Below are positions 61,135 to 62,257 of a stretch of 64,000 nt of DNA, piece after piece. The position numbers were made by a program, and so were the translations under genes. Below the pieces are notes generated by a model. It made no database searches, was not told the DNA's origin, and was given only the letters and a program-made list of their open reading frames with translations. Source of the stretch: Planctomycetota bacterium (GTDB taxonomy: Bacteria > Planctomycetota > Planctomycetia > Gemmatales > Gemmataceae); NCBI GenBank assembly GCA_003671255.1, contig QWPF01000006.1:1-64000 (forward strand), read 5' to 3'. Each line of letters begins with the position of its first letter. Within the stretch, counting starts at the first letter, position 1.

Positions 61135-61221
61135 TTTTTAGTTAAATCCCTATTGACAAGGTTCTTCCTTCGGCTATTTCGAGTCTTATGTTGGGGTATT
61201 TCTTAATAGGGGGATTTTGTT

Positions 61222-61581
61222 ATGAAAAAAAGGGTATTAGCCTTTGGTGCTTTGATTATCTTTAGTTCAATTTCATTTGGCCAATCTCAAAGTAATCCTA
61301 ATGGAACTATTACGCAAAACAGTAATAGTTGGAATCCTTTTGCGTTTTTGTTGCCCAGTCCGCAAGATGCAGCGGCAATGCAAAAAGCCCAGCTTGATAA
61401 CGCACGATTAGCACAACCACAGAATTTCTATAAACGAGATCAAAGCTTAATGGATTTCTTTAGCCCTTTGCCCAAATTGACTAATTCGAATCCGGTGGGC
61501 TATTCAAATTTTCCCAAGCGAAGCCAATTGCCTGGTAAAGATTATCTTAGGGGGTTTGGTTATAGGAATGGTGGGCAGTAA
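61222..61581 (+). CDS. Small secreted protein of unknown function
   Basis: A 119-residue protein. Residues 1-23 form a clear signal peptide (KKRVLAFGALIIFSSISFG) with a likely cleavage before QSQS. The mature part is polar (NGTITQNSNSWNPFAFLLPSPQDAAAMQKAQLDNARLAQPQN) and ends in a basic stretch (KRSQLPGKDYLRGFGYRNGGQ). No domain recognised. GGGGGA precedes the ATG. It lies directly upstream of the structured leader of the next secreted-protein gene. Confidence 0.65.
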   Translation: MKKRVLAFGALIIFSSISFGQSQSNPNGTITQNSNSWNPFAFLLPSPQDAAAMQKAQLDNARLAQPQNFYKRDQSLMDFFSPLPKLTNSNPVGYSNFPKRSQLPGKDYLRGFGYRNGGQ

Positions 61582-61590
61582 AATTCCACA

Positions 61591-61660
61591 TTTATAAAAG
61601 TTTTCTTTCATAAATCCTCTGAGTTTGGTATAAGGAAATATCAAATACGGAGGATTTATG
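61591..61660 (+). promoter_or_regulatory. Candidate bistable leader RNA: start-burying hairpin and competing hairpin
   Basis: CATAAATCCTCTG (61609-61621) pairs with CGGAGGATTTATG (61648-61660), 13 pairs with one U-G, covering the ribosome-binding site GGAGG (61649-61653) and the ATG at 61658. Inside it, TTTGGTAT (61624-61631) pairs with ATATCAAA (61638-61645), leaving a six-base loop. An alternative hairpin pairs 61591-61600 with 61605-61614 across a UUUU loop (nine pairs, one A-C mismatch) and overlaps the first arm, so both cannot form together. Confidence 0.65.
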
Positions 61661-62257
61661 GCTATTTTACGATTTGGATTTTCGGTTCTTTTAGTATTAT
61701 CTCTGACTTTGGGTTCATCAGTAGCCCAAGACAAAGATAAAAAAGCAGAAGATAAGACCGCTAAAGCTGATCCTAAAGAAAAATGGATTCCTGTGGGACA
61801 GGTTGTTGCAGTATTAAAAGAAGTTCGCGAAAGCGATAAATCCGTAGTTATTGCCATCCAAACTCAGGGATACAGTCCGCAAGCAAGAAGAGTTGTTGCT
61901 AAGATGGAGAATCACACTCTTTTTCTTAAAGATGATGTTAAAATTCGTTTGTTAAATCCCCCTGAAGCATTTGATGATAAGGGCAGAGCTAAAAAATATA
62001 CTCCTAAAGAATTGAAAGAACTAAAGGGCGACGATTTAAAAACCCCTGGATATCCAGGTGATTTCTCAGATTTAGTTAATGACTTGATAGTGAATGTAAC
62101 ATTGATGCAAAAACCAATAAAACCGGTTCGAGGTGGAGCCACTGGCTTGGTGGGCGTTGCAGGAAAAAAAGACGATCCAGACATAGCTAAAGAATTAGGA
62201 CCCAAAATATCAGCCATAGTGATTATGGGTCGCATTCCAGATTATAACAAAAGATAA
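61658..62257 (+). CDS. Small secreted protein of unknown function
   Basis: A 199-residue protein. Residues 1-23 form a signal peptide (ILRFGFSVLLVLSLTLGSSVA) with cleavage before QDKDKK. A lysine/aspartate-rich linker precedes a compact domain from about 44 (WIPVGQVVAVLKEV) with strands KSVVIAIQTQG and NHTLFLKDDVKIRLL and helix YTPKELKELKG. No family recognised. Its start codon and GGAGG lie inside the hairpin at 61609-61660. Its stop abuts the convergent HpcH gene with no gap. A periplasmic or surface location is inferred. Confidence 0.7.
   Translation: MAILRFGFSVLLVLSLTLGSSVAQDKDKKAEDKTAKADPKEKWIPVGQVVAVLKEVRESDKSVVIAIQTQGYSPQARRVVAKMENHTLFLKDDVKIRLLNPPEAFDDKGRAKKYTPKELKELKGDDLKTPGYPGDFSDLVNDLIVNVTLMQKPIKPVRGGATGLVGVAGKKDDPDIAKELGPKISAIVIMGRIPDYNKR

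Follow-up and report, generated by a model that had tools for sequence, protein, structure and literature searches.

This locus raises the question of what a long inverted repeat does when it lies exactly over the start of a gene: whether it acts in the mRNA, as a fold that hides the start of translation, or in the DNA. The window, i.e. the whole stretch of 64,000 nucleotides that was analyzed, originates from G000, a planctomycete metagenome-assembled genome of 3.2 Mb in 191 contigs. Its open reading frames comprise argC followed by two small genes in tandem, which code for proteins of 119 and 199 amino acids and are separated by 76 nt. Both proteins were searched against Pfam and NCBIfam, and neither was assigned. 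The 199-aa protein carries a signal-peptide-like N terminus, in agreement with the initial annotation, which had described it as a small secreted protein. The features of the locus are collected in Table 1.

Table 1. Features of the two-gene locus, with positions in the window.
Feature	Position	Strand	Remarks
Putative promoter of the 119-aa gene	61153..61180	+	TTGACA-N16-TATTTC; from alignment and the L037 sequence
Upstream gene, 119-aa protein	61222..61581	+	Conserved across the genus and in G034; N terminus resembles a signal peptide
A/U-rich spacer from upstream stop codon to hairpin	61582..61607	+	From sequence; outside the main hairpin in folds
Weak alternative hairpin	61590..61615	+	TTTT loop; shares part of the 5' arm; from fold energy; probably incidental
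Hairpin predicted to occlude RBS and start codon	61608..61661	+	Stems of 14 and 9 pairs separated by an A·A mismatch; loop of 6 nt
5' arm (anti-SD/anti-AUG), non-coding	61608..61631	+	Contains CATAAATCC and most of GGTATAA (alignments)
3' arm	61638..61661	+	Contains GGAGG (61649-61653) and ATG (61658-61660); from sequence and fold
Putatively regulated gene, 199-aa secreted protein	61658..62257	+	Small beta-barrel by structure prediction; belongs to a protein family expanded in this bacterial family

A predicted hairpin covers the start of the 199-aa gene

The minimum free energy fold of the 101-nt context 61580-61680 reached -29.6 kcal/mol, and none of 200 dinucleotide shuffles of this context folded as well (z = -5.1). 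The fold contains an outer stem of 14 pairs (61608-61621 with 61648-61661) with a closing U·G pair, an A·A mismatch at 61622/61647, and nine inner pairs (61623-61631 with 61638-61646) that enclose the loop AAGGAA at 61632-61637. A nearly continuous hairpin had been annotated at 61609-61660; the structure predicted here bears this out and is slightly larger. The sequence and the predicted fold also agree with the annotation in placing GGAGG and AUG within the 3' arm, so that a stable predicted stem lies over both SD and start codon, as is characteristic of RBS-occluding hairpins.

Gene starts in 0.95 Mb of G000 were ranked by structure, and the start of the 199-aa gene came first among 678, with a ΔG of -26.7 kcal/mol as compared to a mean of -8.1 (sd 3.9). 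It ranked second of 628 when a slightly longer folding window was used and the window's own genes were excluded from the background. Shuffling of the 5' half alone restored the stability of the window hairpin in 0 of 2000 trials. A repeat element was rejected, as a DNA search of G000 returned the hairpin sequence in a single copy. An additional match of the model R1 in G000 was weak (C68, E 0.24) and falls within a response-regulator-like gene.

Palindromic elements were also observed at two other gene starts of G000. At locus L069 on contig C2 (start at about 7758, minus-strand count), the inverted repeat ATACTGCAGAC-N7-GTCTGCAGTAT is located just upstream of the start; it resembles an operator, or a leader hairpin with the SD left free. 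At locus L109 on contig C150 (start at about 5530, minus-strand count), a strong GC-rich hairpin, GAGGGCCCAGTTTTTGGGCCCTT, directly precedes SD and ATG.

Conservation within the genus

The gene is present in six of the seven genomes of the genus, and these six species were compared. The initial annotation had named a lack of conserved pairing in related genomes as evidence against the structure; this was not seen, since all six leaders form the hairpin, with energies of -20.7 to -28.7 kcal/mol, and shuffled 5' halves matched them in 0 of 2000 trials each. Standard pairs make up 95% of the pair cells in the genus alignment as compared to 24-48% with the partner slid.

G000 itself is the most divergent species and carries nine substitutions in the hairpin at almost equal stability. 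The most informative comparison is that with G005, from which G000 differs by nine substitutions in the freely varying part. Random substitutions gave energies of -12.9 ± 4.2 kcal/mol as compared to the -26.7 kcal/mol observed (P = 19/10000); the reverse direction gave 7/10000. Stability was kept because the nine differences between G000 and G005 are located in the loop, in the mismatch region, or at pair-compatible sites. Retention of structure in orthologues despite sequence change, the second characteristic of an RBS-occluding hairpin, was thus found in all six species, and for G000 with P ~0.002.

Alignment of orthologous leaders had also been proposed as a check for compensatory changes. 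None were found within the genus: the number of pairs changed on both sides in the six-species alignment was zero, because this alignment is too uniform. Paired sites showed no significant reduction in variability relative to unpaired sites of the leader (3/24 vs 9/34, p = 0.32), and the leader is conserved across the genus as a whole, not only in the hairpin. This overall conservation and the missing formal covariation would also be expected if a functionless palindrome had arisen by chance in the ancestor of the genus and had been kept together with its leader. We regard such an origin as highly improbable, given that stability withstood nine substitutions in G000, that the fold is extreme genome-wide, and that a hairpin in the same register occurs in G034, outside the genus. 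Overall, the evidence for selection on the hairpin structure is moderate.

Relatives outside the genus

Locus L037 of G034, a genome of another genus, has the same gene order as the window locus, namely amidase, argC, the 119-aa homologue, the 199-aa gene, an aldolase gene, a metalloprotease-like gene, and a MoxR-like gene. Its leader is predicted to form a weaker hairpin over SD and AUG. Shuffling its 5' half gave a less stable structure in 1991 of 2000 trials (9/2000 as good). The hairpin stood out no further than the 5% level with the conserved apex GGTATAAACA held fixed (266/5000), and it ranked 42 of 291 in its own genome, i.e. it is unremarkable there. Six positions differ from the genus on both sides with pairing kept. 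These double changes were not counted as compensatory because random bases at the same positions were equally or more stabilizing in 8295 of 20000 trials (41%). With filters off, the model R1 recognized the orthologous G034 leader at 9.7 bits and in the right register, and it missed this leader at default filters; a search of 95 genomes of the family yielded no further convincing loci. Retention of the hairpin across genera is weakly indicated by these data.

The leaders of other members of the 199-aa family showed no obvious equivalent hairpin, and in four genomes of two other genera the homologues of the 119-aa gene adjoin a different gene. The leaders of the homologues at L038, L040, and L042, which belong to another genus (g18), contain a conserved promoter-like element, TTGTAC-N17-TAAACT, well upstream of the start instead of a hairpin.

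Transcription of the two genes

All seven orthologous loci carry the sequence TTGACA-N16-TA ahead of the 119-aa gene. A scan for terminator-like sites between the 119-aa and 199-aa genes found none, and a de novo search for promoter motifs gave no usable signal. Because the upstream promoter is conserved and no terminator was found, the hairpin is most likely located between the cistrons of one mRNA.

Located between the two genes, the repeat might itself serve as an intrinsic terminator or as an attenuator, given that the strong stem is followed by a few T, GCTATTTT in the window and GCGTTTTTAG in G034. We consider this very unlikely: the scan did not report the site, the tail scored low (0.5-2.0) and is coding sequence of the 199-aa gene, and the lower stem is A/U-rich, which differs from intrinsic terminators, in which a U tract comes immediately after a GC-rich stem.

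A promoter inside the repeat has a precedent in bacteriophage T4. In read-through transcripts of the T4 genes e, soc, 49, and I-TevI, a stem-loop pairs with SD and/or AUG; in gene e, the late promoter TATAAATA is located upstream of the RBS within the hairpin's 5' strand, and mapped late promoters yield transcripts without the 5' arm (PMC3014915). Here, mRNA reading through from the 119-aa gene would likewise be sealed, and transcripts initiated within the hairpin, with GGTATAA in its 5' part as -10 box, would be free of the 5' arm and be translated. This arrangement would reconcile so stable a hairpin with expression. The locus resembles the T4 genes in the stem-loop, which would pair with SD and AUG on a read-through transcript, and in having TATAA within or close to the 5' arm. 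All seven loci share an identical GGTATAA at the apex, which is the longest such stretch in the upper part of the hairpin and reads in the genus as an extended -10 element, TGGTATAAA or TGGTATAAG. The hexamer 17 nt upstream, however, is TTTCAT or TTCCAT, not TTGAC, and the TG of the extended -10 element is missing in G034. The end of the -10 box would be only about 23 nt from the ATG as compared to 40-119 nt, mostly 40-69 nt, for the few TTGAC-N-TANNNT pairs in the genome, and a promoter scan of the + strand at the hairpin found nothing. Thus, unlike at the mapped T4 late promoters, neither -35 box nor spacing supports a promoter within the hairpin, and we judge gating by an internal promoter, the foremost of the rival readings, to be unlikely.

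A palindrome may also act at the DNA level, for example as operator of a dimeric regulator, with the RNA fold being incidental. The arms are nearly palindromic, and the antisense strand therefore also matches the structural model; the sequences flanking the apex, TTTGGTAT and ATATCAAA, are operator-like, and paired and unpaired sites of the leader could not be told apart by substitution rate. Several pairs are G·U, though, which are mismatches in DNA: those of alignment columns 23/36 and 3/56 are invariant, and that of columns 14/45 occurs in 5/6 species. Moreover, the repeat spans exactly SD and AUG, and the sole conserved canonical promoter is located far upstream of it. We infer that RNA rather than DNA has been under selection and hold a DNA-level function to be quite improbable. 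An antisense start codon created by the palindrome was considered and rejected, as in relatives its reading frame is disrupted early.

Alternative structures of the leader

The initial annotation had drawn a second hairpin at 61591-61614 that competes for part of the 5' arm, and had proposed a translational riboswitch, an RNA thermometer, or a protein-binding leader. The second hairpin can indeed be drawn from the sequence, at 61590-61615, but amounts to only -3.4 kcal/mol in the window and -3.1 kcal/mol in G006, and was not predicted in G001, G002, G003, and G005. A conserved alternative structure is thus missing, as the mutually exclusive fold is weak and confined to two of six species. A search of Rfam with the leader gave no match at gathering scores and otherwise chance-level matches only, as anticipated in the annotation, which had known of no matching RNA family. 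The leader shows no aptamer-like conserved domain and no feature for binding of a ligand or protein, and its sequence occurs at no other locus of the genome.

When the fold was modeled over a temperature series, the probability of GGAGG being unpaired did not exceed 0.008 up to 70 °C. The main stem stays closed to this temperature in the model and the SD does not open in the physiological range; simple thermal opening is therefore not supported. Both the riboswitch and the thermometer reading share SD sequestration with the locus, which differs from such RNAs in lacking a conserved alternative structure, an aptamer, and melting at physiological temperatures. A switch made of two mutually exclusive hairpins appears most improbable.

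Proposed mechanism

The explanation that we favor, with somewhat better than even confidence, and that is also the simplest, is an intercistronic hairpin in one mRNA that occludes the start of the 199-aa gene and represses it. This mRNA would be transcribed from the TTGACA promoter that precedes the 119-aa gene and include the 76-nt intergenic leader, which would fold into a hairpin of 23 pairs over SD and AUG. Since ribosomes would load only on the opened hairpin, the second cistron would be translated less than the first and would probably be gated. The hairpin thus probably throttles the second gene. If the -27 kcal/mol is taken literally, translation would all but cease unless the hairpin is opened, which speaks against this explanation. 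The stop codon of the 119-aa gene is located 26 nt 5' of the hairpin, so that by geometry a terminating ribosome should not melt it. Candidate openers are a 30S subunit poised on the A/U-rich spacer, which, going by established work on standby binding, could be a ribosome standby site, a trans-acting factor, or cleavage by RNase III. That the leader is a lineage-specific regulatory RNA whose sealed start, between two secreted-protein genes, is opened by a dedicated factor (a protein, a small RNA, or RNase III processing) seems rather unlikely.

The 199-aa protein and its family

Structure prediction for the 199-aa protein gave a small barrel of five strands, with a helix following the third (pLDDT 74). 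Its best PDB matches were weak (E ≥ 0.007, TM about 0.2-0.4), and ribosomal S17-type proteins are among them. An OB-like fold is hinted at by these results, which assign no function.

Members of the family in G000, G018, G029, and other genomes are secreted proteins that have a small barrel, a linker rich in lysine and aspartate, and the conserved motif PPxxFDDKGxxKxYTxKELxELKG, and lack a Pfam or NCBIfam assignment. They often occur in several copies per genome, in tandem in G018; in G029, a single frame of 485 aa was matched repeatedly.

Relation to known systems and significance

In ISPpu9 tnp and similar transposase genes, the RBS is masked by a structured leader, and translation stays low until this structure is opened (PMC8450116). 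The 199-aa gene resembles ISPpu9 tnp in the predicted leader structure over the RBS and differs from it in that the locus is single-copy, without an apparent mobile element, and no antisense RNA gene was identified.

We assign the hairpin to a known class, the RBS-occluding intercistronic hairpins, of which it is a new, lineage-specific example from a freshwater planctomycete group. To our knowledge, there are no well-studied cis-regulatory RNAs in planctomycetes, and a literature search on this subject found nothing on point. The locus, found genus-wide and in single copy, is a clean candidate for strong occlusion of translation between two genes for secreted proteins, and it raises the question of how a start buried at -27 kcal/mol gets translated.
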